IMG/VR virus record: IMGVR_UViG_3300044641_009805
Coordinates: 186,001 to 250,000 of that record
Source of the DNA: a virus
Reading direction: 5' to 3' (one strand)
Length of the DNA stretch: 64,000 bases
Both the position numbers and the translations under genes were made by a program. Below, in pieces: positions 17,966 to 47,416 of the stretch; position 1 is the first letter of the stretch; every line of letters begins with the position of its first letter. Below the pieces are notes generated by a model. That model was given only the letters and a program-made list of their open reading frames with translations, was not told the origin of the DNA and searched no databases.

Positions 17966-18000
17966 AAATCCGCTCATCGACGTGTTACCATATATGTTGC

Positions 18001-19188
18001 ATGGATGTTGCTCTAGAATCGTCCTTGTTGGGAACGAACCAACACCTTCTCGTGTCGGATGATGGTTACTCGAGAATCAAAAAGATTCCTGATGAAGTCT
18101 GGCGATGTTCTCTAGACCGCCGTGAGGACGCGACTTTCTGTTGGAATACTCTGCAGATGTTGCATGACAAGTCAGAGGTCCCTCAACCTCCTGAGGCACA
18201 CGTCAGGTCGATTCGTTCCTTGATGAAGGAAGGGATTCCTCCATGGTCGATGGTTCTGCCCCCAACGATCTACAGGACATACCTAGATTCACTCGTGGCT
18301 TTTTCAAAAAAGAAGGTTGATGAAACAACAATCGAATATTATAAGAATATTTGGATGCATGCTTCCTCTCTTCTGTCATCATTAAAACCTGCAAAGGTTG
18401 ATGGTGCATTGGTTGAAGCCTTGTGCGAATCAGTTCACAATTCTCAAATCGTTTCCACATTCAAGGCCCGCGCGGGAGGATACGCTCATCCTATCACGTA
18501 TGACAGGTTTGGGACGGTGACGGGTCGTCTCACAGTGTCCTCAGGTCCAAATATTCTGTTGCTGAAGAAAGAAAACAGGAGGTTGTTGAAACCTTCGACG
18601 ATCGGAGGATACGTGGTTTCATTGGACTTTTCATCTCTTGAAGCGAGGATTCTGCTCTATGAATCCGGCAGAGGTTGCGAAGCGGCCGATCTCTACGCGG
18701 ATATAGCGACACGTTTGGGTGGCATACCCAGGAACGTAGTGAAGGCAGCTGTTCTGGCTGAACTGTATGGATCTTCCAGAAATGCCCTGGCTTTGACTCT
18801 CGGCATGTCAAACGATGACCTATCACGCTTCATAAGCAAAGTTGGAGAGATCATAGACACTCGAGCCTTGCTTTCTAACCTAAAGAGGCAATTTTCTCGT
18901 GAGGGTTTCATCACGAACAAGTATGGTCGAAGGATCGAGGTCTCTCGCCCGCAGGACAACATCTTCATCAATTATTACGCTCAGAGCACGGGCGTCGATG
19001 TGGCTCTCGTAGGATTCAACAAGATTTTGACGTCGCTGGGTAACGACGGGATCAGGCCTCTTTTCGTTCTTCACGATGCTCTCATACTAGACGTAAGAGA
19101 GGACAGGATAAAAGACGTGGAATCCGTCGAGTCAGTTAAAGTTCCAGGTTATGAATTTGAATTTCCGTTGAAGTTAGAAAAAATCTGA
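18001..19188 (+). CDS. Very small family A DNA polymerase (PolA-type palm domain)
   Basis: A 395-residue protein holding the polymerase part of a Pol I-like enzyme, without a 3'-5' exonuclease domain. Motif A is SLDFSSLEARI with Asp209; motif B is RNVVKAAVLAELYG with Arg244, Lys248 and Tyr256; motif C is LHDALILDV with His358 and Asp359. Two features are unusual. The residue equivalent to E. coli Phe762 is Leu252, and the Glu normally following the catalytic Asp in motif C is Ala360. ATG 18001 is chosen over TTG 17962 because homology-like sequence begins there and it follows a TATATG-like box. The same genome encodes a family C replicase at 43832, so this enzyme may serve repair, lagging-strand or specialised synthesis. 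Confidence 0.85.
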   Translation: MDVALESSLLGTNQHLLVSDDGYSRIKKIPDEVWRCSLDRREDATFCWNTLQMLHDKSEVPQPPEAHVRSIRSLMKEGIPPWSMVLPPTIYRTYLDSLVAFSKKKVDETTIEYYKNIWMHASSLLSSLKPAKVDGALVEALCESVHNSQIVSTFKARAGGYAHPITYDRFGTVTGRLTVSSGPNILLLKKENRRLLKPSTIGGYVVSLDFSSLEARILLYESGRGCEAADLYADIATRLGGIPRNVVKAAVLAELYGSSRNALALTLGMSNDDLSRFISKVGEIIDTRALLSNLKRQFSREGFITNKYGRRIEVSRPQDNIFINYYAQSTGVDVALVGFNKILTSLGNDGIRPLFVLHDALILDVREDRIKDVESVESVKVPGYEFEFPLKLEKI

Positions 19189-19239: not shown

Positions 19240-19836
19240 ATGACATTAAGTCCTGAGAAAATTGCTTCAAACTTTGACAAATTTCGATCTCTGTGTGAGA
19301 GGTTAGGAGATCGATCCGCTGCCGCCCTGTCTCTAGTCGATCATTTCGGCGAGAGATTGGCTTTATGTCCTGCTTCAGGCAGAAAAGAATTTCATTTGGC
19401 AGAACCCGGAGGTTTGGTGGATCATTCTCTTCGCGTTCTCAGCAATGCAATGAAGTTGTGTAAGGCATTTGAATATGATTTGCCAAAGGATTCTCTGATC
19501 ATCGGGTGTCTCTTTCACGATGCAGGAAAGCTGGGAGATCTGGAACAAGATTATTACCTGCCCCAAGACTCAGATTGGCATAGAGATAAGTTGGGTGAGA
19601 CCTACAAACACAACAAAAATATCAAGTACATGACTGTTCCTCATCGAGGCGTTTGGTTGTGTCAGCAATTCGGTCTGCGCCTCACTCAAGATGAGTGGCT
19701 TTCCATCATGTTGAACGATGGATGGGTTCTTCAGGAAAACAAAGCCTACTGTCTAAAGGAATCGAACCTCGTTCACGTCGTACAAACGGCTGATTATCTT
19801 GCGACGAAGCAAGAAAAAGAGATGATTGACGAATAG
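19240..19836 (+). CDS. HD-domain phosphohydrolase
   Basis: A 198-residue protein with the metal-binding HD pattern: a first His in GGLVDHSLRVL, the paired His-Asp in GCLFHDAGKLGD, and a later Asp in VVQTADYLAT. Proteins of this superfamily hydrolyse nucleotide or cyclic nucleotide phosphates; the substrate here is unknown. It follows the small polymerase gene and precedes a tagged small protein by eight bases, suggesting one transcript. A weak AAAGAG lies upstream of ATG 19240. An immune-countering nucleotide hydrolase or a dNTPase are both possible; neither can be decided from sequence. Confidence 0.75.
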   Translation: MTLSPEKIASNFDKFRSLCERLGDRSAAALSLVDHFGERLALCPASGRKEFHLAEPGGLVDHSLRVLSNAMKLCKAFEYDLPKDSLIIGCLFHDAGKLGDLEQDYYLPQDSDWHRDKLGETYKHNKNIKYMTVPHRGVWLCQQFGLRLTQDEWLSIMLNDGWVLQENKAYCLKESNLVHVVQTADYLATKQEKEMIDE

Positions 19837-20638: not shown

Positions 20639-21478
20639 ATGGCAATCGATCTAGAAGCAATCAAGCGTCGCGTGGCAGAACTCAGTGGTGTGAAGAAGAC
20701 GTCATCAGTCCAGATGTGGAAGCCACAAATCGGAGAATACAAGATTCGTTGTCTTCCATGGAAGAATGCTCCTGAGGGCCAACCCTTCGCCGAGAGGTGG
20801 TTCTATTATATTGGAGAGAACGCAGGCCTTCTGGCGCCGAATCAGTTCGGTAAGCCAGATCCCATCAACGATCTGATTCGCAAGCTGTATAGCAGCGGTA
20901 AGCCAGATGATAGGGTTCTTGCGAAGAAGCTTGCCCCTAAGATGCGTTGCTACGCTCCCGTTGTCGTTCGAGGTGAGGAAGACAAGGGCGTGCAGGTTTG
21001 GGCATTCGGCAAGATCGTATATCAGCGTATGCTTGGTTTCTTCCTCGATGAGGAGGTTGGAGACATCTTGGATCCGAACCAAGGATTCGACCTCAAGGTG
21101 ACAATCTCCAAGGCACCAGGCAAGCAGTTCAATGACACGATGGTGGATCCTGCTCGCCGCCCCTCAAAGCTGCATGAGGATCCAAAGGTCATGGCGACGT
21201 GGCTTGAAAACATTCCAAACATCGATGACATGTATCGTCTTAAGTCAACTCAAGAGATTGAAGCAGTCCTCAATAACTGGCTCAATGGTGGCGCGACGGA
21301 TGACACACCTGTTGAGACGACCCGTGGACCTGCAACAGCAGATGCTCTTGAAGATCTTGTGGCAGAAGTGAAAGCTTCGTCTCCTGAGAAGCCGAAGAAA
21401 CCGAAGAAGGCCGATGAGGATGCTCCAAAGAAACAGTCGTTAGATGATGCATTCGCTGACCTGATGGGCGACGAGTGA
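20639..21478 (+). CDS. Single-stranded DNA-binding protein, T4 gp32-like
   Basis: A 279-residue protein with a very strong ribosome site (AAAAGGAAAA). The N-terminal ~20 residues are basic, as in the cooperative arm of gp32. The core carries MWKPQIGEYKIRCLPW and later GKIVYQRMLGFF, the pattern of phage OB-fold SSBs. The C terminus is Lys/Pro-rich and then acidic, ending DDAFADLMGDE, the typical protein-interaction tail. It coats ssDNA during replication and recombination, and lies before UvsX as expected. I see no gp32-type zinc-binding Cys/His cluster. A strong hairpin follows the stop codon. Confidence 0.85.
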   Translation: MAIDLEAIKRRVAELSGVKKTSSVQMWKPQIGEYKIRCLPWKNAPEGQPFAERWFYYIGENAGLLAPNQFGKPDPINDLIRKLYSSGKPDDRVLAKKLAPKMRCYAPVVVRGEEDKGVQVWAFGKIVYQRMLGFFLDEEVGDILDPNQGFDLKVTISKAPGKQFNDTMVDPARRPSKLHEDPKVMATWLENIPNIDDMYRLKSTQEIEAVLNNWLNGGATDDTPVETTRGPATADALEDLVAEVKASSPEKPKKPKKADEDAPKKQSLDDAFADLMGDE

Positions 21479-21488
21479 TTTGACGATA

Positions 21489-21526
21489 TCAAGCGCCGGG
21501 GAAATTAAAAAATCCCCGGCGCTTGA
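21489..21526 (+). terminator. 14-bp perfect GC-rich hairpin between SSB and UvsX genes
   Basis: Arms TCAAGCGCCGGGGA (21489-21502) and TCCCCGGCGCTTGA (21513-21526) pair perfectly around the 10-nt loop AATTAAAAAA. There is no long T-tract after it, so it may be an attenuator, an mRNA-stabilising 3' end for the SSB transcript, or a terminator. It ends 32 nt before the UvsX start. Confidence 0.7.
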
Positions 21527-21558
21527 ACTATTTAATGCTCTTAAAGGATAATAAACGT

Positions 21559-22746
21559 ATGGCAAAAAGAGAGAAGTCTGAAGAGATTGAGACCGTGACT
21601 AAAAAGTCCGAAGTTGATAACATGATGAAAGATCTCATTTCATCTATCAATAAGGAGTTTGGTCAACGCATCGCATATAACCTGTCAGAGATGGATGCAC
21701 CCACTGTCGTAAAACGGTGGATTGACACAGGATCTATTCAGCTCAATTATGCGATTAGAAACGCGATGGATGGAGGATATCCAGAAGGACGAATCATAGA
21801 GATTGCAGGATTGCCTTCATCAGGTAAATCGCATCTTGCTTACCATGCAGCCAGCGTCGCGCAACGAATGGGTGGTCTTGTCGTCTATATAGACACAGAG
21901 AATGCAACTCCTGTTGCCAAGCTCGCCGACATGGGTATTGATGTACGTAAGAGATTTGTCTACTGCGATTCTCATTGCACAGAAGAGGTATTCTCCATCA
22001 TAGAATCTACCATCACTAAGGCGAAGCAAGTCCTTGATAAGAACATTCCAATCCTCGTCATTTGGGATTCAGTGGCTGCAACTTCTCCGAAGGCAGAGTT
22101 GGATGGCGATTACGATCAAAATTCGATCGGCCTTCAGGCCCGTGCCATTTCCAAAGGAATGCGCAAGATCACAGGCGTGATTGGTCAGAACAACGTGACT
22201 CTTCTCTGTATCAATCAAATTCGTGATGCCATTGGAGTCATGCATGGCGATCCAACGACAACACCAGGTGGTCGTGCAATTCCATTTCACTCGTCCGTCC
22301 GCATCCGTCTTGGTAGCGGAAATCAAGTGAAAGACAAAAATGGTAATCCGATCGGTATTCACACGACTGTCACTCTCAAAAAGAATAAAGTTGCAGCTCC
22401 TTTCCGCAAGTGCGAATTTGACATTATCTTCGGCAAAGGTATTGTTGAGGATGAGTATCTCTTTGATGAAGTTCGATCTCATTGCAAAGCAAATGGAGCT
22501 GTAAAACGAGATGGTCTTGAGATTAACATTAGCGGAGAAGGCGCTTGGAAAGAGTTATCAGTCGTCAATGCAAAAACAGGCGAAGTTATGGTAGAGAAAA
22601 AGTTCTACAAATCAGAGTTTGGTGACATGTTGAAGGATGAGAAATATCGTAACTATCTTTTGACGGCTATTGATTCTGCTCTTGTAACGACTGGCGGAGA
22701 GCCTTCTGGCGAAGGAGATGGTGAAGGAGGAATGTCAGATGAGTGA
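21559..22746 (+). CDS. uvsX: UvsX/RecA-like recombinase
   Basis: A 395-residue protein, close to the T4 UvsX length. Walker A is GLPSSGKS at residues 84-91; Walker B-type hydrophobic strand LVIWDSVAA follows, and the L2-like region includes [10 protein letters not shown]. The protein forms filaments on ssDNA and drives strand exchange for recombination-dependent replication. ATG 21559 is preferred over TTG 21523 because AAAGGA lies ten bases before it. The 3' end overlaps the dUTPase start by eight bases. The C terminus is Gly/Glu-rich and acidic. Confidence 0.85.
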
Positions 22747-23278
22747 TATATTCTGGATTCGATGTGAAGTAGACAGTGACGATCTTGTTCCGAAGTATCA
22801 AACACAAGGATCAGCAGGGTGTGATCTATACGCTAACGAGTATCTGACGATCAAACCTGGTCAAAGGGCTACTGTAGCGACTGGGTTAAAGATTGAACTG
22901 CCTCCTGGATTTGAAGCCCAAGTCAGACCTAGATCTGGGTTAGCTGCCAAATATGGTATCACTGTTCTTAATTCTCCAGGAACAGTAGATTGTTTTACTT
23001 CAAATTGTTTGATTTCAACTCCTGCTGGAAAAAAGCAAGTATTTGATTTGAAGATAAATGATGTCGTGTTTTCTATGAATGAACAGACTCTTTGTGTCGA
23101 AAGCGATGTGATAAGCGCAATTGTTGATGTAGGTGAAAAAGATGTAATCAAATTTGTTTTTGATGATGACACAGAACTGTGCGTAACTCCAGGAACGATG
23201 ATTTATACTCGAGATGGGCTTAAAAGAGCTGATGAGCTATCATATGATGATGAAATTGTAATTGACCATGATACTTAA
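22739..23278 (+). CDS. dUTPase N-terminal half fused to the N-part of a split intein
   Basis: A 179-residue protein. Residues 1-84 are the first half of a trimeric dUTPase, with motif 1 (GSAGCDLYA) and motif 2 (RPRSGLA), ending in the start of motif 3 (NSPGTVD). Residue 85 is Cys and begins an intein N-part ([13 protein letters not shown]...), which continues to the stop with a block-B-like segment ([10 protein letters not shown]) and the ending [12 protein letters not shown]. There are no endonuclease blocks. Translation starts at ATG 22739, seven bases after GGAGGA. It should trans-splice with the protein at 24191-24487. The usual block B His appears replaced by Thr153. Activity needs splicing, because motifs 4 and 5 are on the other half. 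Confidence 0.9.
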
Positions 23279-24298
23279 TTATCATGGTGAAATGTCTAAT
23301 TTGTAATCTAGAAAAGAAGTTTTCTATAGTTGAGCATCTTCGTAATACTCACAAAATATCAACAAAAGAATATCGACTGCGGTTCAAAGATGCAGAAGTA
23401 AAATCTCTTGAAGCAAAAGAGTTGGTCTCAAAAAACAATCGTAATGTTTGGTCCAATCCCGACTATCACAAGAAGATGTGCGAATCTCGTCAAGTTACTC
23501 ATAGAACGGATGCATTTCGAAAAAAACAATCTGAAATAATATCAAACACATATGCAAACGGTCATAAAAACTGGAATGATGGACTTACAAAGCATGATGA
23601 TGAACGTGTTGCTGCGGTTGGAAAAAGAAATTCTGCGCTTTTGACAGGTCGCACAAAAGAAACTCATGATTATCTAAAAAATCATAGTGATTTTATGAAA
23701 GAACACGTCTCTGATGAATTTAAATTTCGTCTGTCATGGACGGATGAAAGAAAAGAGCAATGGAGACAAAAGATTAGTGAAGGTGTTTCTGAAGCTATTT
23801 TAGAAGGTCGTTGTGGATCATCAAATAGATACAAAAAAGGGTGGTATCTTACTAAGATAGGATCAAAAGAATTTTACGATTCTTCTTGGGAACTTGAATT
23901 AATGACATTTCTTGACACAACATCGCTTTCATGGACAAAAGCTCATGGGTATAAAATTTCTTATATCGATGAAAACAATAAAACAAGACGTTACATTCCT
24001 GATTTTTACATCTACAACGATGACAAAAAATGCATTTTAGAGCTAAAAGGATTTAGCTTCAACGATAATAAAATAGAAAGAAAAAGTTCATCTGCTGAAT
24101 TGTTCGCCTTTAGCATTAATGCACGCTATTTTTTGTCTTTTAGCCTTGATGAATCGAAAAAATATATCATTAATTTTTTTGGAGAAAAAAATGAAGTTTG
24201 TAAAAATTAAAAATAAAACAACGCATAATGAACGATGTTATGATCTTACAGTAGAAAATAATCACAATTTTTTTTGTAATGATGTTCTTGTTCACAAT
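22991..24298 (+). mobile_element. Fractured intein cassette: intein-N, free-standing endonuclease, intein-C
   Basis: The stretch from the intein Cys1 codon (22991) to the last intein Asn codon (24296-24298) is foreign to the dUTPase gene. It contains intein-N (95 codons), a stop, a complete endonuclease gene, and intein-C (36 codons ending VLVHN). Removing both intein parts at protein level would join ...PGTVD to CDYRGE..., an intact dUTPase motif 3 with Cys at the junction. The segment is clearly AT-rich. This is the arrangement known for environmental phage 'fractured genes'. Confidence 0.85.
23284..24210 (+). CDS. Homing endonuclease inserted inside the split dUTPase gene
   Basis: A 308-residue protein starting five bases after the intein-N stop and overlapping the intein-C start by 20 bases. 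The N terminus is a C2H2-like finger (CLICNLEK...H...TH). The middle is Lys-rich and includes WNDGLTKHDDERVA. The C-terminal domain has SSWELELM, YIPDFYI and CILELKG, the Glu, Asp and E-X-K positions of PD-(D/E)XK/Vsr-like nucleases. It has the same domain order and the same GLTK motif as the gene at 1700-2599, so both belong to one family. It presumably cuts intein-free dUTPase alleles so that the cassette is copied in. No good SD is seen; translation may be coupled to the stop just upstream. Confidence 0.8.
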   Translation: MVKCLICNLEKKFSIVEHLRNTHKISTKEYRLRFKDAEVKSLEAKELVSKNNRNVWSNPDYHKKMCESRQVTHRTDAFRKKQSEIISNTYANGHKNWNDGLTKHDDERVAAVGKRNSALLTGRTKETHDYLKNHSDFMKEHVSDEFKFRLSWTDERKEQWRQKISEGVSEAILEGRCGSSNRYKKGWYLTKIGSKEFYDSSWELELMTFLDTTSLSWTKAHGYKISYIDENNKTRRYIPDFYIYNDDKKCILELKGFSFNDNKIERKSSSAELFAFSINARYFLSFSLDESKKYIINFFGEKNEVCKN

Positions 24299-24487
24299 TG
24301 TGACTATCGAGGGGAAATTAAGGTCATTTTGTTGAACACAGGTGACGAAGAATTTATTGTCAATAAAGGCGATAGGATTGCACAGTTGGTATTTTCTCGA
24401 GTTTTTCGTGGGATATTCCAACCAACCAACAGTTTGTCTTCAACGACCCGCGGCAGTGGTGGATTCGGTTCTACAGGCAAAACATGA
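24191..24487 (+). CDS. C-part of split intein fused to dUTPase C-terminal half
   Basis: A 98-residue protein. Residues 1-36 are an intein C-part with block F (CYDLTVENNHNFFCND) and block G (VLVHN), including the penultimate His and terminal Asn. Residue 37 is Cys+1 and starts the dUTPase C-half: CDYRGEIKV completes motif 3, GDRIAQLVF is motif 4 and TTRGSGGFGSTG is the Gly-rich motif 5. The spliced enzyme would have 84+62=146 residues, a normal dUTPase length. ATG 24191 follows GGAG by six bases, inside the endonuclease gene end. The stop overlaps the next gene start as ATGA. Confidence 0.9.
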   Translation: MKFVKIKNKTTHNERCYDLTVENNHNFFCNDVLVHNCDYRGEIKVILLNTGDEEFIVNKGDRIAQLVFSRVFRGIFQPTNSLSSTTRGSGGFGSTGKT

Positions 24488-25455
24488 GTTCAGATCGTCC
24501 CATCTTGGTTATTGATGGAGCAAATCTTTTTATTAGGTCATGGGCGGCATACCCACAAATGTCGACCCATGGCTATCAAATGGGAGGTTGCATCGGTTTT
24601 CTTAAGACGTTGAAAAGAATCACAACTGAGTTACAGCCTTCAATGATCTGTATAGCGTGGGAAGGTGGGGGTTCTCTAAGACGTAGATCAATTTATCCTG
24701 AATATAAGCTTGGTAGACGTCCTGAGAAGCTCAACCGTTTTTACGGAGATGATATACCTGAGTCAGAAGAGAACAGGAAACATCAGCTTATTTCTCTATT
24801 GAACATGCTAAAAAATTCTCCTGTTTGCCAAGTTTACGCCTCTGATTGCGAGGGTGATGACATAGTTGCGTTTCTTTGTTCGGGGCCATTTAAGCAAAAT
24901 AAAAAGATCATAGTTTCTTCTGACAAAGACATGTATCAACTGTTGGATGCAAATACTTCGATCTATTCTCTTCATAAGAAAAAAGTCTTGACAGTTGATG
25001 ACGTCTTTGAAGAATTCCGAATAAAACCCAACAACTTCGCAGCCGCCAAGGCGTTATGTGGAGATCCTGGAGATAACATTCCTGGAGTAAAAGGGTTGGG
25101 GTTTAAGACGGTTTCTAAAAAACTTCCTATATTGGGAACAGATGATGATCTCTTGATAGAGGACATCATTTCGTTTTGTCAATCCAGGATTGGAGAATCT
25201 ACTGTTTATAAGAAGGTCGTAGACAATCAAGATTTGATCAACAGAAATTGGAGATTGGTATACCTAGATGGTAGTATGTTGTCAGCATCTCAAATTTCTA
25301 AAGTGCAACATACGTTAGATACATTCGTTCCGCACGTTAATAAGATCGGATTGATCAAAGCCCTCCTCAAAGAAGGAATCAACGATTTTGATGTTGAGGC
25401 ATTTTTTTATTCAATGAACTGTATTGACAGCGCGAAATACGTGACTGGTAACTAA
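24484..25455 (+). CDS. 5'-3' exonuclease / flap endonuclease (T4 RNase H-like)
   Basis: A 323-residue protein of the FEN/5'-nuclease family. Acidic metal ligands appear in order: VIDGANLF near residue 10, the cluster SDCEGDDIVAF, SSDKDMYQ and GDPGDN. GDNIPGVKGLG is the DNA-binding helix-hairpin-helix. T4 RNase H and related proteins remove RNA primers and flaps during lagging-strand synthesis. The gene overlaps the dUTPase C-half by four bases (ATGA) and is one base before the helicase gene, in a clear replication operon. Confidence 0.85.
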   Translation: MSSDRPILVIDGANLFIRSWAAYPQMSTHGYQMGGCIGFLKTLKRITTELQPSMICIAWEGGGSLRRRSIYPEYKLGRRPEKLNRFYGDDIPESEENRKHQLISLLNMLKNSPVCQVYASDCEGDDIVAFLCSGPFKQNKKIIVSSDKDMYQLLDANTSIYSLHKKKVLTVDDVFEEFRIKPNNFAAAKALCGDPGDNIPGVKGLGFKTVSKKLPILGTDDDLLIEDIISFCQSRIGESTVYKKVVDNQDLINRNWRLVYLDGSMLSASQISKVQHTLDTFVPHVNKIGLIKALLKEGINDFDVEAFFYSMNCIDSAKYVTGN

Positions 25456-25456
25456 A

Positions 25457-26893
25457 ATGTTAGAAAACGAAAATAAAAACAAGTTAACCTTTGGATCTTA
25501 CGGTAAGTCTTTTCAAGAGAAGATCATGCAGGCTCTCTTGACTGACTCGAAATTTGCCGAGCAGATGATGGAAGTGTTTGACACTTCTTACTTTGAGTTG
25601 AAGTACTTACAGTTCCTTGCTGATCGATACTTTTCATATTCAAAGAAATATAAGGTTTTTCCAACCCTTCAATTGCTCGTCACCATTATTAGAGAGGATT
25701 TGAAGGTTGGTACAGACGTTATCCTTCGAGATCAAATCATTGAGTATCTCCAAAGGATGAAGGCCAATCCAGATCCAGGAGATCTGCAATTTGTTCGTGA
25801 AAAGTCTCTTGACTTTTGTAGGAAGCAGGCTCTAAAAGCAGCTTTGGAAAATGCTGTTGATCAGATGCAGGCAAACAAATATGAATCGATCGTCGAATCG
25901 ATTAAGAAGGCCGTTCAGGTTGGCACAGCTCCGTCTGTCGGTCATGACTTCTTTAACGAGATGGACGCTCGATTCACACGTCTGAAACGTGACACAATTC
26001 CGACAGGCGTACCTGAGCTTGATAAGAAAGAGATTCTGCAAGGTGGTTCTGGTAAGGGAGAACTTTTGTGTGTTGTCGGAGGAAGCGGAAGCGGAAAGTC
26101 TCACTGGCTCACAATGATTGGAGCCAATGCTCTGCGTGCAGGTAAAAACGTCATGCACTACACCTTTGAGCTATCTGAGACAGCCGTTGGTATTCGTTAC
26201 GATTCAAACCTTTGCGACATGGATTCTAATGAAGTCATGGATCATAAAGACGAGGTTGCTGAGAAGTATAAGAACATGAACCTCGGTCGACTTTACATTA
26301 AGGAATATCCAACCAACACAGCGTCTATCTTCACGATCCGTTCGCATATTGAACGTCTCGACCTAAAAGGTTTTAAACCGGACATTATCATCATTGATTA
26401 TGCTGACATCATGAGATCAACTCGTCAGTTTGATTCTCTTCGTCACGAATTGAAATTGGTATATGAGGAGCTGCGAGGTCTTGCAATGGAATTAGGCGTT
26501 CCAATCTGGACAGCATCGCAATCGAATAAAGAAGGAGCCAATAGCGAGATCATCGACATGACAAATATGTCAGAAGCTTACGGAAAGGCTATGATTTGCG
26601 ACTTCATCATATCAGTCTCTAGACGACCACATGAGAAGGCTTCAGGCTGGGGTAGACTCTTTGTCGCAAAGAATCGAGCAGGTAGAGATGGACTTGTTTT
26701 TCCTGCCAAGATCAACACTGCTCAGAGTAAATTTGAGATTACAGGAGCAGCAGATACGCCAGAAGAAACTTCATCCTCAGATGAAGTTGAACAGAAAAAA
26801 GCCTTAAGAGCCAAATGGAAAGAACTAAAAAATGAATTTTCTAGTTCAAGAAACTTTTCGAGCGCAGAATCAGTAACAACGGTTGGAAGTTAA
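25457..26893 (+). CDS. Replicative DNA helicase, DnaB/T4 gp41-like
   Basis: A 478-residue protein. The N-terminal ~150 residues resemble the DnaB/gp41 collar domain; the ATPase domain has Walker A GGSGSGKS at residues 208-215. It continues with the H1a-type FELSE, Walker B IIIIDYADIM and the sensor-like WTASQSNK. Hexamers unwind DNA at the fork. Genes gp41, NrdJ and IMPDH are known hosts of environmental split inteins, but this copy is uninterrupted. It follows the exonuclease gene by a single base. The C terminus is Ser/Glu-rich and probably disordered. Confidence 0.88.
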   Translation: MLENENKNKLTFGSYGKSFQEKIMQALLTDSKFAEQMMEVFDTSYFELKYLQFLADRYFSYSKKYKVFPTLQLLVTIIREDLKVGTDVILRDQIIEYLQRMKANPDPGDLQFVREKSLDFCRKQALKAALENAVDQMQANKYESIVESIKKAVQVGTAPSVGHDFFNEMDARFTRLKRDTIPTGVPELDKKEILQGGSGKGELLCVVGGSGSGKSHWLTMIGANALRAGKNVMHYTFELSETAVGIRYDSNLCDMDSNEVMDHKDEVAEKYKNMNLGRLYIKEYPTNTASIFTIRSHIERLDLKGFKPDIIIIDYADIMRSTRQFDSLRHELKLVYEELRGLAMELGVPIWTASQSNKEGANSEIIDMTNMSEAYGKAMICDFIISVSRRPHEKASGWGRLFVAKNRAGRDGLVFPAKINTAQSKFEITGAADTPEETSSSDEVEQKKALRAKWKELKNEFSSSRNFSSAESVTTVGS

Positions 26894-26943
26894 GATATAG
26901 TTATGCATCCCAAGAATTCAATGAATTGGAGACGGAACGTAAT

Positions 26944-29526
26944 ATGAAAACATACACGTATAATGAAGCATATGAAGCATCGTTGGACTACTTTAAGGGA
27001 GACGAGCTCGCTGCATCAGTCTTTGTTTCAAAGTACGCGCTGCGCGATTCTAAAGGAGGCATTTTAGAAAAGACGCCTACTGACATGCATCTGCGTCTCA
27101 CTCGTGAGTTTGCTCGTATTGAAGCCAAGTATCCAAATCCTCTTTCGGAGAAAGAGATTTTCTGTCTCCTTGCTGACACTGATCATCTAGACGTCACACA
27201 AAAGTCGACAATGACGCTTGAACAATTGGCAGCCGAATCGCGAGGCATTGGGGCAGTCGTTCCGCAAGGTTCTCCAATGTCTGCCATGGGCAATCCATAC
27301 AAGCTTCAATCATTGTCTAACTGCTTCGTTATAGCTTCTCCGCAAGATTCTTATGGCGGAATTCTATTCACGGATCAGGAACAGGCGCAAATCATGAAAC
27401 GTCGTGGTGGCGTTGGTTTCGACGTCTCTACGATTCGTCCCAAAGGCCTTGCCACAGCCAATGCAGCTGGAACGACCGATGGTATCGGCGTCTTTATGGA
27501 GAGGTTCTCCAACACATGCCGTGAGGTTGCTCAAGGTGGTCGTCGTGGAGCACTAATGCTCACAATTTCGGTGATGCATCCTGAGGTTGAGACTTTCATC
27601 AACATCAAACGAGATCTAAAGAAAGTCACAGGAGCAAACATCTCTGTTCGTCTCACTGACGAATTTATGAATGCAGTGAAAGATGATAAGGAATTTACTC
27701 TTCGTTGGCCAGTCGAGGTACCTGTTGAAGAAGCTAAAGTTACCAAGATCGTCAAGGCTCGAGAGCTTTGGAATCAGGTCATCGATGCCGCATGGACTTC
27801 TGCAGAACCAGGTCTTCTATTCTGGGATACAGTCAAGAAGATGACACCAACTGAGGCATATGCTTCAAAAGGATACGCCAACGTTTCTACGAATCCTTGC
27901 GCTGAGCTGATTCTCAGCCCTTACGATTCTTGCCGCCTTCTTCTCATCAACCTCACAAAGTTTGTGAAGGACGCATACCTTCCCACGGCTTCATTCGATT
28001 TTGATAAGTTCAAGAAAGTTTCTGCAAAAGCGCAAAAGTTGATGGATGATCTTGTCGATCTTGAGATTGAGGCCGTCGATGCTATCTTGAAAAAGATTGG
28101 ATCCGACCCTGAGAGTGAAGAGGTCAAACAACATGAGGTCAACCTCTGGCAAAAAATCAAAAAAGCTGCCTCAGGCGCCCGTCGCACAGGACTTGGAATC
28201 ACTGGCATCGGAGATGCTCTGGCTTCGATTGGCGTAACCTATGGTTCTGAAGAGTCAGTTCATAAGACAGAAGAGATTTATAAAACGTTGGCTCTTTCCG
28301 CTTATCGATCTTCAGTCGACATGGCAAAGGACAGAGGATCATTCCCCGTCTATGATTGGTCTTTAGAAAACGAAAGTCCATTTTTAAAGAGAGTTATGGA
28401 AGCTGATAAGGCCTTATTTGCAGATTGGGTGAAATACGGTCGTCGCAACATTGCGTTGACAACGACTGCTCCGGCAGGGTCTGTTTCATGCCTCACGCAA
28501 ACGACAAGCGGTATTGAACCAGCTTACCTTCTTTCCTACACACGCCGTAAGAAGATTAACCCTAATGACACCGCATCACGAGTTGATTTTATCGATCAGC
28601 TTGGTGATAAGTGGCAGGAGTATAAGGTCTACCACCACGGTTTCAAGAAGTGGATGGATGCCACAGGAAAGGTAGATGAGCAAATTGCAGAGTCACCCTA
28701 CTGGAAGGCAACAAGCAATGATGTTGACTGGCCTATGTCCGTCAAGCTTCAGGCTGCTGCTCAAAAGTGGGTCTGCCATGCAATCTCTAAGACCTGTAAC
28801 CTTCCTAATGATGTGACAAGAGAAGTTGTTGCTGACGTTTATATGGCTGCCTGGGAGGCCGGATGCAAGGGTTTCACTGTCTATAGAGATGGATGCCGTA
28901 CAGGCGTTCTAGTTCAGGATACTCCCAAGGAGACAAAGAAGGTTGATGACAGCCAGCCAGAAACCATGATAGAAAATCATGCTCCAAAGCGACCGAAGGA
29001 ATTACCATGCGATATTCATCGAATTAACGTAAAGGGTTCTGAAGGTCAGGAATCATATCTTGTCCTGGTCGGCAGGCTTGAAGGAAAGCCATACGAGATC
29101 TTCTGTGGCCTATCACATCACGTTGAAGTTCCGAAGAAGGCGAAGGTAGGAAATCTTATCAAGAATGGTAAGAAGGATGGAGTTGCAACATACAATCTTC
29201 AGATTCCTGTTGGGGATGACGATAACCTTGTTTTCAAGGACATTGTGGAGTTGTTCTCCAATCCAAATCACGGAGCTTTTACAAGATCCCTCTCGCTTGC
29301 TCTACGCCATGGGGTTCCTGTTCAATACGTTGTTGAACAGCTACAAAAAGACAAATACAGTGATATGCAATCTTTCTCTAGAGTCTTGGCCCGCGTTCTA
29401 AAAGGATACATTCCTGACGGCGCAAAATCAACGTCTGACAAGACGTGTCCTGAGTGTGGATCTAACTCTCTAGTTTACAAAGAAGGATGCGTCACATGTA
29501 ACAGCTGCTCTTGGAGCAAGTGTTGA
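26944..29526 (+). CDS. nrdJ: Class II (adenosylcobalamin-dependent) ribonucleotide reductase
   Basis: An 860-residue protein. Active-site residues are visible: the redox Cys in LSNCFVI (Cys127), the finger-loop NPCAE with the radical Cys319 and partner Glu321, and the second redox Cys330 in YDSC. The C terminus is a zinc ribbon with CPEC and CNSC pairs and a final CSWSKC, as in NrdJ proteins that are re-reduced by thioredoxin. No small subunit gene is seen nearby, consistent with the B12-dependent class. It makes dNDPs or dNTPs for phage DNA. ATG 26944 is preferred over TTG 26926. It carries no intein, although NrdJ is a known split-intein host. Confidence 0.88.
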   Translation: MKTYTYNEAYEASLDYFKGDELAASVFVSKYALRDSKGGILEKTPTDMHLRLTREFARIEAKYPNPLSEKEIFCLLADTDHLDVTQKSTMTLEQLAAESRGIGAVVPQGSPMSAMGNPYKLQSLSNCFVIASPQDSYGGILFTDQEQAQIMKRRGGVGFDVSTIRPKGLATANAAGTTDGIGVFMERFSNTCREVAQGGRRGALMLTISVMHPEVETFINIKRDLKKVTGANISVRLTDEFMNAVKDDKEFTLRWPVEVPVEEAKVTKIVKARELWNQVIDAAWTSAEPGLLFWDTVKKMTPTEAYASKGYANVSTNPCAELILSPYDSCRLLLINLTKFVKDAYLPTASFDFDKFKKVSAKAQKLMDDLVDLEIEAVDAILKKIGSDPESEEVKQHEVNLWQKIKKAASGARRTGLGITGIGDALASIGVTYGSEESVHKTEEIYKTLALSAYRSSVDMAKDRGSFPVYDWSLENESPFLKRVMEADKALFADWVKYGRRNIALTTTAPAGSVSCLTQTTSGIEPAYLLSYTRRKKINPNDTASRVDFIDQLGDKWQEYKVYHHGFKKWMDATGKVDEQIAESPYWKATSNDVDWPMSVKLQAAAQKWVCHAISKTCNLPNDVTREVVADVYMAAWEAGCKGFTVYRDGCRTGVLVQDTPKETKKVDDSQPETMIENHAPKRPKELPCDIHRINVKGSEGQESYLVLVGRLEGKPYEIFCGLSHHVEVPKKAKVGNLIKNGKKDGVATYNLQIPVGDDDNLVFKDIVELFSNPNHGAFTRSLSLALRHGVPVQYVVEQLQKDKYSDMQSFSRVLARVLKGYIPDGAKSTSDKTCPECGSNSLVYKEGCVTCNSCSWSKC

Positions 29527-39934: not shown

Positions 39935-41620
39935 ATGTTAGATATTTCAATTCTAGAACTAAAAAAAGCAGTCAAGACTCCGAAGGCTGCCTCTAATTTT
40001 ATCAGAAAGCATATCAAGGTTGTCGAGAAAATCGACGGAACGAAACTTACCTTGATACGCAATGATGCGCAATTTGACCCAAATGACTATACAAAAAACT
40101 GGATTATTTCGTATAAGGGAAACATCATTTATTCTACGGAATTTTCTGGATTGGAAAAGAGAGATAAAGACATTAAAACGTCTGGGCTAGGTACGTCTCA
40201 ATATAAATTTGTGTATGATCATTTGAAAAGAGTCCATGAAGGAACTGCTTCAATTCCTCTCAATACAGAATTTTTTATAGAATTTGTTCAAAATAAACCT
40301 ACTGTAACTAGAGATTATGCGAAGAAACACGGCATGTTCTTGGTCGGATTTGGGCCGGCAGTGTATGCATCATCTAAAGGGCAAATCTATTCTTCATCCA
40401 CATTTGTTGATGATCCTGCTAAGTTAGAAGAGTACAGAGAAATATTACAGTTAAATTCTTTTCCATTACTCTACGAAGGTAATTTGTCTTCTAGGACGGA
40501 GATATTCGATAATAGCGAATATCTTGATCCAAGGCTTAGAGAATTATTCTCACAGAATCTAGAGACAGTGGATTTTTCAAATCCGCAAGAGATTCTTGAC
40601 GGAGTTGTTAGTTCTTTTCAAGCTTTGGAGTCCTCGTTAGGAGGACAATCAGAAGGAGTTGTCATCACCGTCGAAGGTGATGACATGTCTGAGAAGCAGC
40701 TATATAAAGTTTTAGCAGCCGATCAACACAACAAAGAAGTAAGAGAGAAAAAGAAATCTAGGTATAAGGGCACCCCGCAAGAAGAAGCAGCGTATTGGGA
40801 AGACATCAACGCTACTACTGATCTAATTCTGGACGAATTGCAGATTGATGCTAGGGATTCTCGACCTGAAGAAGCGTTGAAAGACTTGTCGGCAAGAGTT
40901 TATGAGATGTCTGAAGAAGACATAGGAGCATATCATCCTGTTAAAACTCTTTTAAATAAGCAAGAAGATTTAATGCTGACTGCTAAAACCAGATTGTTCG
41001 TTTTAGGTCATAGACTCAAAAAGATAGCTGTCATTCCTATGGCTGCAAAACCTTTTCACAGAGGTCATCAAGCGTTATTGGATGCAGCAGAAGCAGACGG
41101 AAATGAATTAATTCTAGTGTATGTATCTACGGGGGGAAGAGACGAAATAAGTTCTTCTGACATGGTCCCGTTGTGGAAAAACTACTACTTGCCAGCCATA
41201 CAAGAGACGTATGGAGATAAGGTCGCCATCAGGTTCACAAAAGGAATTTCTCCCATGTATGAACTGAGATCTGCAATCTCCAACCTAGTCAGACAATCAG
41301 AAGAAACAGTAGTGACTCTTTATGGAGATCCAGAAGATGCTGCCCGCCGCGTCGACGATATAATCAATAACGAAAAAAACGTGGTTGATCTAACGAGAAA
41401 AGTCGTGGCAGGATCGGTACCCAGAGAATCTTCCGGCGGAATTTCTGGCACAAAAATGAGAGAATTTTTGTCGACTGGACAAAGAGAACAGTTCATGAAG
41501 AATTTGCCTGATTTTTTGAACGAAGATTCAAAACTAGCAATTTGGAATTCTTTGTCAAAAAGTAAAGTTTCGCAAAGTGAAAATCTATTGAAATCATATG
41601 TAAGATTAATTCTTGCATAA
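39935..41620 (+). CDS. Polynucleotide ligase domain fused to a NadM-type nucleotidylyltransferase
   Basis: A 561-residue two-domain protein. The N-terminal domain has the ligase adenylation motif KIDG at residues 32-35, a later FFIEFVQ strand and SEGVVITV (motif IV) around residue 240, as in RNA ligase-like enzymes. The C-terminal domain has the HxGH motif (HRGH, residues 375-378) and the ISGTKMR motif (503-509) of the NMN/nicotinamide nucleotidylyltransferase superfamily. It might seal nucleic acids and also make NAD or a related dinucleotide. The end NLLKSYVRLILA resembles the tag found elsewhere. Fusion of these two is unusual. Confidence 0.7.
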   Translation: MLDISILELKKAVKTPKAASNFIRKHIKVVEKIDGTKLTLIRNDAQFDPNDYTKNWIISYKGNIIYSTEFSGLEKRDKDIKTSGLGTSQYKFVYDHLKRVHEGTASIPLNTEFFIEFVQNKPTVTRDYAKKHGMFLVGFGPAVYASSKGQIYSSSTFVDDPAKLEEYREILQLNSFPLLYEGNLSSRTEIFDNSEYLDPRLRELFSQNLETVDFSNPQEILDGVVSSFQALESSLGGQSEGVVITVEGDDMSEKQLYKVLAADQHNKEVREKKKSRYKGTPQEEAAYWEDINATTDLILDELQIDARDSRPEEALKDLSARVYEMSEEDIGAYHPVKTLLNKQEDLMLTAKTRLFVLGHRLKKIAVIPMAAKPFHRGHQALLDAAEADGNELILVYVSTGGRDEISSSDMVPLWKNYYLPAIQETYGDKVAIRFTKGISPMYELRSAISNLVRQSEETVVTLYGDPEDAARRVDDIINNEKNVVDLTRKVVAGSVPRESSGGISGTKMREFLSTGQREQFMKNLPDFLNEDSKLAIWNSLSKSKVSQSENLLKSYVRLILA

Positions 41621-43831: not shown

Positions 43832-46800
43832 ATGACGAGAGACAATAAAACAGCTTCACCTACCAGATTCGTGGGTCTTCATGCGCATTCTACATTTTCG
43901 CAGTACGATGGTCTCGATTATCCTCAAGAGCACATTGATTACGTGCTAGAAAATGGCATGGACGCTTGGTCGTTGACTGACCATGGTAACATGAATGGAT
44001 TCTGTCACGCTTTTCTTCATGCCGAAAAGATGAAAAAGTCAGGAAAGAACTTTAAGTTTATCCCTGGCTGCGAGATGTACGTTCATCCTGATCTTACCCA
44101 GTGGAAAAAAGATCTGGAAGCGTCCAAGGTAAAACCTGCAAAGGACGAGTCCATCATTACTCCTATCACCGCGGTCGTTGATGGCGATGACGAGACGACA
44201 GACGTTGGTACGGATGAAGCAGCTTTGACTGTTGAGAACGAGGACGAGACGAAGTCAGGTAAATACAATGATCCCGTCAAGCGTCGTCATCATCTAGTCG
44301 TTCTACCAAAAACCTCAGTAGGCCTTCAACGTCTGTTCCACCTGGTATCCAGGGGATACATGGAAGGATTTTATCGATTCCCTCGAATCGATTATTCGAT
44401 GCTAAAAGAAGCAGCAAAAGGTGATCATCTCATGATCAGCACAGCTTGTTTAGGTGGTCCTTTGGCTTTCGACGCTTTCGAACAGCTTCAAAAAGTTCCG
44501 TTCGAAGAATTGAAACACCAATTGCTTAACGACAGATCACTTTTGGATCGTATCATTGCTACGATGAGTAACACTTACGACAAGTTAGTTGATGCCGTCG
44601 GTCGCGATAACGTATGTCTTGAACTACAATTCAACAAGCTCCCTGCTCAGCATCTTGTTAATCGAGCTCTCATTGAGTTTTCCAAACGAAATTCCCTGCG
44701 CGATAGAGTGGTGGTTACTTGCGACTCGCACTATTCACGACCAGAAAACTGGAAAGAACGAGAGATTTATAAGAAGCTAGGTTGGCTTAACTATCAAAAC
44801 TTTGATCCAAGCTTGTTGCCTAAGTCTAAGGACGATTTAAAATGCGAATTGTATCCCAAAAATGCCAAGCAGGTGTGGGAATCTTATTTGTCTACGACGG
44901 AAGGCATGGATTTCTATGACGATGAATTTGTTAAGGACGCGATTGAAAGAACCCATGATATCGTTCATAACGAATTAGGTGACATTCAGCCTGACAAGAC
45001 AATGAAGCTTCCTTCTTACGTGATCCCTGAGGGAACCACGGAAGATAAGGCACTCGTGGTTGCGTGTAAAAATGGATTGAAGTGGAGAGGTCTAGACTCA
45101 AGACAAGACTACATCGACAGAATCAAATATGAGCTAGGCATCATCAAAGGTAAGAAGTTCTCTAGGTACTTCTTGACGATGAAGGCTATCATGGATATTG
45201 CTCGTGAGCATATGTTGATCGGACCAGGTCGTGGATCAGCTGCTGGTTCACTTGTAGCCTATGTTCTTGGAATTACGAATTTGGATCCAATTGAATATGA
45301 TCTTTCTTTTGAAAGATTTTTGAATCCTTCTAGAACAGGTGCCCCTGATATTGACTCTGACATCTCTGATCGAGATTTATTGATTGAACTTCTTAGAAAG
45401 AATCTTGGCGAAAGGAACGTCATTCCTATCTCCAACTACAACACCTTCAGGTTAAAGAGCCTCATTAAAGATATTGCTCGATTCTACAGTATCCCTTTTG
45501 AGGAAGTCAACGCTGCTCTTGCTCCTGTCGAGGATGATGTCAAGAAGGAGGTCTTTAAACCAGGAACAGACAAGAACTTGTTCGTTCTTACATACGAAGA
45601 CGCCATCAAATATTCAAAGTCTCTACAAGACTTCATTGCTGCACACCCCGAGGTGGCCGAACCAATTGAGATTTTATTCAAGCAAAACCGTTCTTTGGGC
45701 CGCCACGCCGGTGGCGTCATCGTATCAGAAGATGTCGCCGAAAGAATGCCTCTAATCCTTGCTCGCGGTGAGGCCCAGACACCTTGGGTCGAAGGCATGA
45801 ACTATAAACATCTCGAAGAATTTGGGTGGATCAAGTTCGATCTGCTAGGTCTTGAAACCTTGCGTATCATCGAACGATGCATCGGCCTAATCCTCGAGCG
45901 CCGGGAAGGTGTAAAAAATCCTGATTTTAAGCAAATTCGAGCGTGGTTTGATAAGCATATGGATCCGAAGAACATTGATCTGAACGATCAAAAAGTCTAC
46001 GAATATGTTTACCACGAAGGTAGGTTCGCAGGTATCTTCCAGCTAACACAAACAGGTGCTCAGCGGCTGTTTACGAAGGCTAAACCACGTAGCATCATCG
46101 ACATTGCCACTCTTACTTCGATCTATCGTCCTGGTCCTCTTGCGGCTAACGTGGATAAACTTTATATTGATGCAAAGAATAATCCTGACAAGATTGATTA
46201 TCAACATCCGTTGATCAAAAAAGTCCTCGAGTCTACATACGGTTGTATCATCTTTCAAGAGCAGACCATGAGGTTATGTTCTGTGGTGGCGGGATTCCCT
46301 GAGGCTGAGACTGACACCATCCGTCGTAACATTATGAAGCGCAGCGCGTCTAAGAAAGACGATGCTGCAGCGGATGCGAGGAAAGCAAAAGAAGAGTTCG
46401 TGTTAGGTGCTGTGAAGAATGGCGTAAACGAGAAGGTCGCATCTGAACTATACGATAAGATTCTATTCTTCTCTGGATACGGCTTTAATGCCTCGCATGC
46501 CGTGTCTTATGCAATTGATTCTTACTATTGCGCTTGGCTCTTGACTTATTATGAAGAGGAATGGCTATGCGCATATCTCGAATCGATGTCAGGAAACGAC
46601 GAGAAACGAGCCAAAGCTTTTTCAGAAGTAAAAGCGCTAGGATATAAGATCGTTCCAATTGACGTAAACTACGCGACAAAGAGCTGGACAATCTTGGAAG
46701 GTAAACGATTCATGCCAAGCTTCTTGTCTTGCAAGGGAATTGGAGAGGCTGCTATCGATGAAATCGTCGAGAACAGACCTTACAAGAGTGTCGAAGAGAT

Positions 46801-47416
46801 GTTGTGGAATGATGATGGTTCATGGAAACATTCCAAATTTAACAAGCGAGCTTTTGAAGGTCTCATCTCCATCAGAGCGTTTGACTCTCTTGACTGCGTA
46901 GGTGAAGGAAAAACATTTAACAGCTACAAACAGATGCATCACATCTTGATTGATAAAGGTGCCGATATCAAGAAAACTTCAAAGAAAAATCCTACTCTCG
47001 GTATGGAAAACTTTCGAAATCTTTTGATAGAAACAAATGACATGGATGAGTGGACTCGTGGGGAGTTGGTTGACAACAGCGTGAAATATCTTGGATCATT
47101 CAACTCTAACATTTTAGTTTCTCAAGAACTGATTGCAAAGCTAGAATCTAAAGGTGTCAAATCCATCGACCTCATCGAGCAAACTGACGTTTATTGGTTC
47201 ATTATTTCTGACGTAAAAGAAAAAAAGACGAAGAACGGAAAGCCATACTTGCTTCTGACGGCAATAGGCCTTGAAGGCCAAACCCGTCGGATCTTTTGTT
47301 GGGGATGGGATGGCCGAACTGAGTTGCCGAAGTACTCCACATGCATAGCAGAAATTACTGTCGATAATTACGGTAATAAAACTTTTATGAGCAAGGTTAA
47401 GGTAATCGATGAATAA
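43832..47416 (+). CDS. dnaE: DNA polymerase III alpha subunit (family C replicative polymerase)
   Basis: A 1194-residue protein, the usual DnaE length. The N-terminal PHP domain starts GLHAHSTFSQYDGL and includes DHGNMNGF. Catalytic Asp residues are in PDIDSDIS (Asp506, Asp508) and KFDLLGL (Asp670), matching E. coli Asp401, Asp403, Asp555. GRGSAAGSLVAYVLGI and IIFQEQTMR are conserved palm/finger motifs. The C-terminal domain has an OB-fold-like region. Family C replicases are unusual in phages with a T4-like tail; together with the small family A enzyme the phage encodes two DNA polymerases. No intein, though this gene is a known split-intein host. Confidence 0.92.
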   Translation: MTRDNKTASPTRFVGLHAHSTFSQYDGLDYPQEHIDYVLENGMDAWSLTDHGNMNGFCHAFLHAEKMKKSGKNFKFIPGCEMYVHPDLTQWKKDLEASKVKPAKDESIITPITAVVDGDDETTDVGTDEAALTVENEDETKSGKYNDPVKRRHHLVVLPKTSVGLQRLFHLVSRGYMEGFYRFPRIDYSMLKEAAKGDHLMISTACLGGPLAFDAFEQLQKVPFEELKHQLLNDRSLLDRIIATMSNTYDKLVDAVGRDNVCLELQFNKLPAQHLVNRALIEFSKRNSLRDRVVVTCDSHYSRPENWKEREIYKKLGWLNYQNFDPSLLPKSKDDLKCELYPKNAKQVWESYLSTTEGMDFYDDEFVKDAIERTHDIVHNELGDIQPDKTMKLPSYVIPEGTTEDKALVVACKNGLKWRGLDSRQDYIDRIKYELGIIKGKKFSRYFLTMKAIMDIAREHMLIGPGRGSAAGSLVAYVLGITNLDPIEYDLSFERFLNPSRTGAPDIDSDISDRDLLIELLRKNLGERNVIPISNYNTFRLKSLIKDIARFYSIPFEEVNAALAPVEDDVKKEVFKPGTDKNLFVLTYEDAIKYSKSLQDFIAAHPEVAEPIEILFKQNRSLGRHAGGVIVSEDVAERMPLILARGEAQTPWVEGMNYKHLEEFGWIKFDLLGLETLRIIERCIGLILERREGVKNPDFKQIRAWFDKHMDPKNIDLNDQKVYEYVYHEGRFAGIFQLTQTGAQRLFTKAKPRSIIDIATLTSIYRPGPLAANVDKLYIDAKNNPDKIDYQHPLIKKVLESTYGCIIFQEQTMRLCSVVAGFPEAETDTIRRNIMKRSASKKDDAAADARKAKEEFVLGAVKNGVNEKVASELYDKILFFSGYGFNASHAVSYAIDSYYCAWLLTYYEEEWLCAYLESMSGNDEKRAKAFSEVKALGYKIVPIDVNYATKSWTILEGKRFMPSFLSCKGIGEAAIDEIVENRPYKSVEEMLWNDDGSWKHSKFNKRAFEGLISIRAFDSLDCVGEGKTFNSYKQMHHILIDKGADIKKTSKKNPTLGMENFRNLLIETNDMDEWTRGELVDNSVKYLGSFNSNILVSQELIAKLESKGVKSIDLIEQTDVYWFIISDVKEKKTKNGKPYLLLTAIGLEGQTRRIFCWGWDGRTELPKYSTCIAEITVDNYGNKTFMSKVKVIDE

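Follow-up and report, generated by a model that had tools for sequence, protein, structure and literature searches.

A miniature family A DNA polymerase with Leu762 and an HDA motif C next to a stand-alone FEN in a large DnaE-encoding phage: a candidate half of a split DNA polymerase I

What is the role of a 395-residue family A DNA polymerase in a virus that encodes a DnaE of its own? The question is raised by a gene at 18001-19188 (+ strand) of the window, the 64,000-nucleotide stretch of DNA analysed here (positions 186,001 to 250,000 of IMG/VR record IMGVR_UViG_3300044641_009805). Its reading frame is intact from ATG to stop, and the translated product, hereafter mini-PolA, matches the Pfam family DNA_pol_A (PF00476) with 49.8 bits, above the curated cut-off of 34.3, and the DNA polymerase family PHROG_17 with an E-value of 2.6e-22. 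In its relatives the gene begins at the corresponding position, with either ATG or GTG as start codon. An upstream start, for which the frame is open to a TTG at 17962, was ruled out because the relatives begin at 18001. The polA start has no Shine-Dalgarno-like word and is immediately preceded by an extended -10-like word (17979-18000); such words were found at 13 of 43 gene starts, compared with a background of 11%, and hint at leaderless mRNAs for some genes, dnaE included.

An AlphaFold2 model of mini-PolA, built from 12 family members, has a mean pLDDT of 81.5 and matches the Pol I polymerase fold, with a VIA Z-score of 23.3 (rmsd 5.5, 373 aligned residues) to the large fragment of Bst Pol I (4dsj_A) and a Foldseek E-value of 1.7e-13. 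A preliminary description of this DNA had called the gene a family A polymerase with polymerase motifs and had proposed structure prediction as a check; coordinates, Pfam match and fold all agree with it. DNA_pol_A is the sole Pfam domain of the protein and covers residues 121-376. Neither Pfam nor motif reading revealed a recognisable 3'-5' exonuclease domain, and the Asp-x-Glu pattern is absent from the first 170 residues, so that the exonuclease domain declared missing in that description is indeed missing in function. Part of its fold may persist, because the model can be aligned over its full length with Klenow-type large fragments: the short N-terminal part, rich in beta structure, may be what is left of the exonuclease domain. 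By hhalign, the N-termini of the sister family introduced below match full-length PolA colinearly but weakly (E 0.014, probability 3%); the N-terminus of the window lineage gave no match to full-length enzymes.

The polymerase motifs were aligned with those of E. coli K-12 Pol I, in which the counterparts are D705, E710, R712, R754, K758, F762, Y766, H881, D882, and E883. Motif A (18625-18648, + strand) reads D209-F-S-S-L-E214-A-R216, the O-helix or motif B (18730-18771, + strand) R244...K248...L252...Y256-G257, and motif C (19072-19080, + strand) H358-D359-A360. By this alignment Leu252 (codon at 18754-18756, + strand) occupies position 762 and Ala360 replaces E883, the Glu after the catalytic Asp, both as first proposed. 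In a 12-sequence alignment of the window lineage, D209, F210, S211, L213, E214, A215, and R216 of motif A are invariant, as are R244, K248, Y256, N324, Q328, H358, and D359. The motif A Asp, the O-helix Arg, Lys, and Tyr, and the motif C Asp are kept in the window and in 19 of 19 relatives, all of which also have Leu, rather than Phe or Tyr, in the O-helix position and HDA in motif C in place of the usual HDE. HDE is not universal in this enzyme group; the related T7 RNA polymerase, a single-subunit enzyme that is active, has HDS, and the full-length PolA of phage immuto has HDQ. A non-acidic residue after the motif C Asp therefore need not mean a dead enzyme. Because both metal-binding Asp, R244, K248, Y256, N324, and Q328, all of which we take to have active-site roles, are kept, Ala360 is presumably compatible with catalysis. 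A literature search for kinetic effects of Glu883 changes in Klenow returned none.

The relatives of mini-PolA are encoded on IMG/VR virus contigs and share 50-61% identity with it, apart from near-copies of the window's virus. The 19 relatives include two such near-copies (L023, L024) and two identical pairs (L035/L037 and L036/L038), and the partial sequences L004 and L016 are left out of the lineage counts. One scan of genome contigs yielded no cellular relative, and none of 50,697 cultured phage records covers 80% of mini-PolA. Among 17 sequences (16 distinct), Leu252 is encoded by six codons and Ala360 by GCT (n = 6), GCA (n = 6), GCG (n = 4), and GCC (n = 1). For pairs in this set with more than 70% identity and measurable divergence, dN/dS was 0.06-0.17; saturated pairs gave no value. 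The use of all four GCN codons together with these ratios indicates that the alanine is kept by selection, and we regard the Leu252/HDA pattern as not due to chance.

The two substitutions differ in how unusual they are. For comparison we took 80 full-length phage PolA loci, the highest-ranking of 593 that Leu762-type patterns recovered; the set is biased towards Leu762 and carries flanks of 3 kb only. In this Leu762-biased set, Leu occupies position 762 in 75 of 80 loci, and motif C is HDE in 78 and unrecognised in two; HDA does not occur among these best 80. The enzymes are 614-818 aa long in the 67 of the 80 loci that were measured, and an hhalign comparison relates the window lineage to them with an E-value of 3.5e-17. 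Leu762 likewise ranks first among the types in the viromes treated in part of PMC6302109, with 934 of 2,045 SERC sequences. Of the pair presented as unusual in the preliminary description, HDA thus retains that standing and Leu762 loses it: going by these motifs, HDA is the odd feature of mini-PolA, and Leu762 is commonplace in phage PolA.

The genes around mini-PolA bear on its role. Upstream lie tail sheath, tail tube, baseplate, and tape-measure genes, and the virus is a large phage with a contractile-tail gene set; between the tail tube and baseplate hub genes, ORF reading found a free-standing zinc-finger/endonuclease-like ORF at 1676-2599. Downstream, mini-PolA opens a conserved block in the order PolA, gp32, UvsX, dUTPase, FEN nuclease, DnaB, and ribonucleotide reductase, with all of its window members on the + strand. 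A 198-aa HD-domain protein (19240-19836; PF01966, 27.8 bits) stands between the polymerase and the gp32-like single-strand DNA-binding protein (20639-21478; PF08804, 38.4 bits; PHROG_1192), which is followed by a UvsX/RecA-like recombinase (21523-22746; PF00154, 215.6 bits; PHROG_97) and the dUTPase (22718-24487; PF00692 and weak Hint matches). The stand-alone 5'-3' exonuclease or FEN (24484-25455; PF02739, 90.8 bits) hits the Pol I model PRK05755 over positions 2-253 and has the acidic motifs; its counterpart in bacterial Pol I forms one chain with the polymerase. After it come a DnaB-like replicative helicase (25457-26893; PF03796, 64.1 bits; PHROG_19, E 3.5e-74) and a putative ribonucleotide reductase of 866 aa (26926-29526), named by reading of the ORF and by its place, since an annotated ribonucleotide reductase comes after DnaB in phage immuto.

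The association with FEN is regular. A PF02739 FEN is present in 13 of 13 records of the window lineage, and it lies downstream of mini-PolA on the same strand in all 15 loci with at least 6 kb of downstream sequence. Within the 3-kb flanks of the full-length comparison loci (best 80 of 593), FEN, gp32, and DnaB were found in 0 of 80 and UvsX in 1 of 80. A second, more distant 5'-3' exonuclease match lies outside the window (G000:C1:255573-256022), and likewise in two relatives. The dUTPase is in two pieces around a Hint-like sequence and a free-standing ORF of 308 aa (23284-24210); the first piece (22718-23278) has a Hint-like end, and the last reads ...LVHN-C and continues into the dUTPase C-terminus. 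The broken gene looks like a split-intein fractured gene with an endonuclease-like ORF of its own. Farther downstream, at 39935-41620, a protein of 561 aa has an RNA-ligase-like domain fused to a cytidyltransferase-like domain.

The virus also encodes a DNA polymerase III alpha subunit, DnaE, with a PHP domain (1194 aa; 43832-47416, + strand; TIGR00594, 592 bits; Pfam domains PF07733, PF17657, PF02811, and PF14579). Its catalytic D506, D508, and D670 align with E. coli D401, D403, and D555, and PHP-type motifs, which we take to be metal-binding, are present. The gene lies 26 kb beyond mini-PolA in the window's virus and at 22-27 kb across records of the lineage. DnaE was found in all five lineage records that reach 187 kb or more but not in the eight shorter ones (8.8-97 kb), whose sequence breaks off at most about 13 kb downstream of polA. 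The gene is interrupted in one of the five long records (G010, 171788-173923; L021, L022), with two PF07733 pieces about 1.3 kb apart. Each of the five long records has one PolA only, and neither PolB nor a DnaQ-type RNase_T exonuclease was found in any of them. An ATP-dependent DNA ligase is encoded in four of the five; none was found in the fifth, nor in Mel-JY01, immuto, or LR756508, and the NAD ligase model matched none of eight records. DnaE is the probable main replicase of the window's virus, and since the virus encodes this enzyme itself, mini-PolA is probably not.

Through a search with DnaB, this gene order was also recognised in two cultured phages, namely Flavobacterium phage immuto and Microcystis phage Mel-JY01. 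The PolA of the block has 441 aa in immuto, where it is annotated as 'DNA polymerase family A', and 408 aa in Mel-JY01, where it is annotated as 'hypothetical protein' (WWT39333.1, L056:8579-9805); motif C is Tyr-Asp-Ala in both. A scan with these two proteins recovered at least 451 related IMG/VR stretches, of which the best 80 were analysed. Members of this sister family have a size of about 400 residues, and the best 80 have Phe762 (80/80), mostly Tyr754 (78/80) and His710 (74/80), and a motif C of YDA (n = 69) or YDS (n = 8 or 9, depending on the pattern used), with two or three unrecognised. Most of those tested escape domain models: the Pfam DNA_pol_A cut-off was reached in two of eight members scanned (L231 and immuto) and in none of 14 long YDA records scanned whole. 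PHROGs gave no match at E 0.01 for the mini-PolAs of L209, L225, immuto, and Mel-JY01 and none at E 0.001 for L162, and matches at E 0.01 for L165, L231, and LR756508. A model of a YDA member nevertheless has the PolA fold (pLDDT 93.0; Z 27.4, rmsd 3.6, 351 aligned residues to the Taq large fragment). The block is also the same; in 39 YDA loci with at least 6 kb of downstream sequence, gp32 was present in 39, UvsX in 39, FEN in 38, and DnaB in 35.

The replicase of these phages varies. Immuto additionally encodes a full-length PolA of 777 aa, Mel-JY01 encodes PolB, and the 484-kb record LR756508 contains both pieces of PolB and a match to DnaE. Among 14 long YDA records, PolB was found in seven and DnaE in none, and in seven PolB, DnaE, and PF00476 were all below cut-off or absent; these seven are probably fragments, the alternative being an enzyme that went unrecognised. 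The block coexists with DnaE, PolB, or full-length PolA, so a mini-PolA holds its position whichever of these replicases a phage has. Residue 762 does not track the block, because the sister family in the same block has Phe762 in all of the best 80. The published neighbourhood of Leu762 enzymes, with SNF2-, UvrD-, and RecB-like helicases and without ribonucleotide reductase (part of PMC6302109), is likewise not matched by mini-PolA, which is adjoined by DnaB, UvsX, gp32, and the ORF read as ribonucleotide reductase. On these grounds, and with a DnaE in the same genome, the idea that the identity of residue 762 tells the replication biology of this virus is not supported, and mini-PolA is doubtful as a replication-defining polymerase. 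As far as the motifs go, the oddity common to both mini-PolA families is the residue after the catalytic Asp.

The relationship between the two families can be read in more than one way. The two mini lineages group together in the best tree (97/92), though it does so by joining long branches. The union of the window lineage with the full-length Leu762 enzymes received a p-AU of 0.06, or 0.37 without the YDA rows, and in profile comparisons the window lineage is nearer to those enzymes (E 3.5e-17, as above) than to a two-sequence YDA alignment (E 4.8e-6). The two mini lineages may have shrunk separately at the same locus.

We propose, with a probability of about 0.58, that mini-PolA is the gap-filling polymerase half of a split Pol I that works with the stand-alone FEN, and with a ligase. 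In the proposed scheme DnaE would copy the phage genome, FEN would remove RNA primers or flaps and leave short gaps, mini-PolA would fill these gaps, and the phage ligase would then seal them. A separate FEN lies in the same block, and another replicase, DnaE, is present in five of five long records; this is our best reading because the polymerase stays with FEN while the replicase changes. A parallel is offered by bacteria without canonical Pol I, which mostly have a solo FEN according to part of PMC12926913. RM378 was dismissed as a precedent for a split PolA, since the annotated polymerase piece of RM378 looks, on inspection, like the exonuclease portion of a family B enzyme. Several observations speak against a split Pol I. 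HDA lacks the carboxylate that most PolA enzymes examined carry after the catalytic Asp. The sister family is also without Glu710 and Arg754, a loss (His in 74/80, Tyr in 78/80) that casts doubt on ordinary DNA synthesis in that family. Half of the long YDA records (7/14) have no recognised replicase, and in some records no ligase was found.

The main rival, because UvsX and gp32 share the block, is a polymerase for recombination or damage repair, which would extend D-loops or bypass lesions together with UvsX and gp32, with an only incidental linkage to FEN. With recombination genes in the block, such a role fits nearly as well as a split Pol I: gp32 and UvsX sit between PolA and FEN in both mini-PolA lineages, and mini-PolA has no 3'-5' exonuclease domain, so that it cannot proofread and would be of low fidelity. 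In addition, the bacterial PolA2/APEX enzymes, in which the exonuclease is inactivated, are proposed for mutagenic repair in part of PMC12926913. However, FEN and DnaB, which are replication functions, are linked to mini-PolA just as tightly, and no damage-response signature was noticed in an unsystematic inspection. Overall we consider this role somewhat unlikely.

More improbable is that mini-PolA is the main replicase of the phage and DnaE an accessory, as the preliminary description implied. Mini-PolA does head a replication block with gp32 and DnaB, and in some jumbo phages, as stated in part of PMC7824862, no replication element is conserved except a T7-type family A polymerase. Against this, DnaE is complete, with catalytic Asp and PHP motifs, in all five long records (one of them with the interruption described), the same block coexists elsewhere with PolB or a full-length PolA, and mini-PolA lacks a proofreading domain, for which no separate RNase_T protein was found. 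With DnaE present, a role as sole replicase is unlikely.

That mini-PolA is catalytically dead or nearly so and acts as a structural partner of FEN, DnaB, or DnaE would fit the replacement of the Glu that normally follows the catalytic Asp, and of Glu710 and Arg754 in the sister family, but is very improbable overall, being unlikely in the window lineage, where both catalytic Asp, E214, R244, K248, Y256, N324, and Q328 are invariant, purifying selection is strong, and the residue at issue is Ser in the active T7 RNA polymerase, and less clearly so in the YDA lineage.

A broader picture can be put forward tentatively. Phage half-Pol I enzymes of about 400 aa, marked by a non-acidic residue behind the motif C Asp, might form a wide clade that stays in one block through changes between DnaE, PolB, and full-length PolA and so constitutes a replicase-independent module for primer processing. 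The larger, YDA branch might then have a changed substrate, because the steric-gate Glu710, Arg754, and Glu883 are lost, perhaps with a tolerance for ribonucleotides that would parallel T7-type RNA polymerases.

Among the closest known systems is the Klenow part of bacterial DNA polymerase I (PolA1), which has the same fold, the same order of active-site motifs, a FEN-type partner, and a DnaE in the genome. Mini-PolA and FEN differ from it in being two genes, in the lack of a 3'-5' exonuclease, in Leu762, in HDA rather than HDE, and in a length of 395 rather than 928 aa. With the virioplankton Leu762 PolA groups I and II, as described in part of PMC6302109, mini-PolA has Leu762 and profile similarity in common, whereas the full-length enzymes examined here keep HDE (78/80), are 614-818 aa long, and have other neighbours. 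The YDA/YDS family of Mel-JY01, immuto, and IMG/VR contigs shares with the window's enzyme the size of about 400 aa, the non-acidic residue after the Asp, and the gp32-UvsX-FEN-DnaB block; it differs by Phe762, mostly His710, Tyr754, Tyr-Asp-Ala/Ser, and a PolB or full-length PolA as replicase. Jumbo phages of group 3.2 encode a DnaE with a PHP domain, as does the window's virus, but unlike there, no accompanying mini-PolA is mentioned in the part of PMC7824862 considered here. In group 2.2 of the same source, again as far as that part goes, PolB occurs with a split minimal Pol III alpha, so that two polymerase families are present and one is reduced, as here; the reduced enzyme is Pol III alpha in group 2.2, whereas in the window's virus PolA is reduced and DnaE is whole.

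Taken singly, an exonuclease-poor PolA, a phage DnaE, and a solo FEN are all of known kinds. The literature searches made found no paper on an HDA mini-PolA or on the combination of mini-PolA, DnaE, and FEN, nor an earlier account of a mini-PolA family that is large, mostly lacks annotation, and sits in a conserved block. With such a combination, this virus would seem to have reassembled, out of small separate proteins, the way in which bacteria divide the work of DNA copying. Polymerases of about 395 aa that lack an exonuclease and are naturally altered in motif C would be useful for testing which portion of Pol I is required for catalysis and for cooperation with FEN. Virome studies use polA, and especially residue 762, as a marker of phage replication mode; since polA in the window most likely encodes something other than the replicase, reading its residue 762 in this way would be misleading. 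Pfam and PHROGs overlook most of the sister-family members tested, and many large phages therefore probably carry an unannotated second polymerase.
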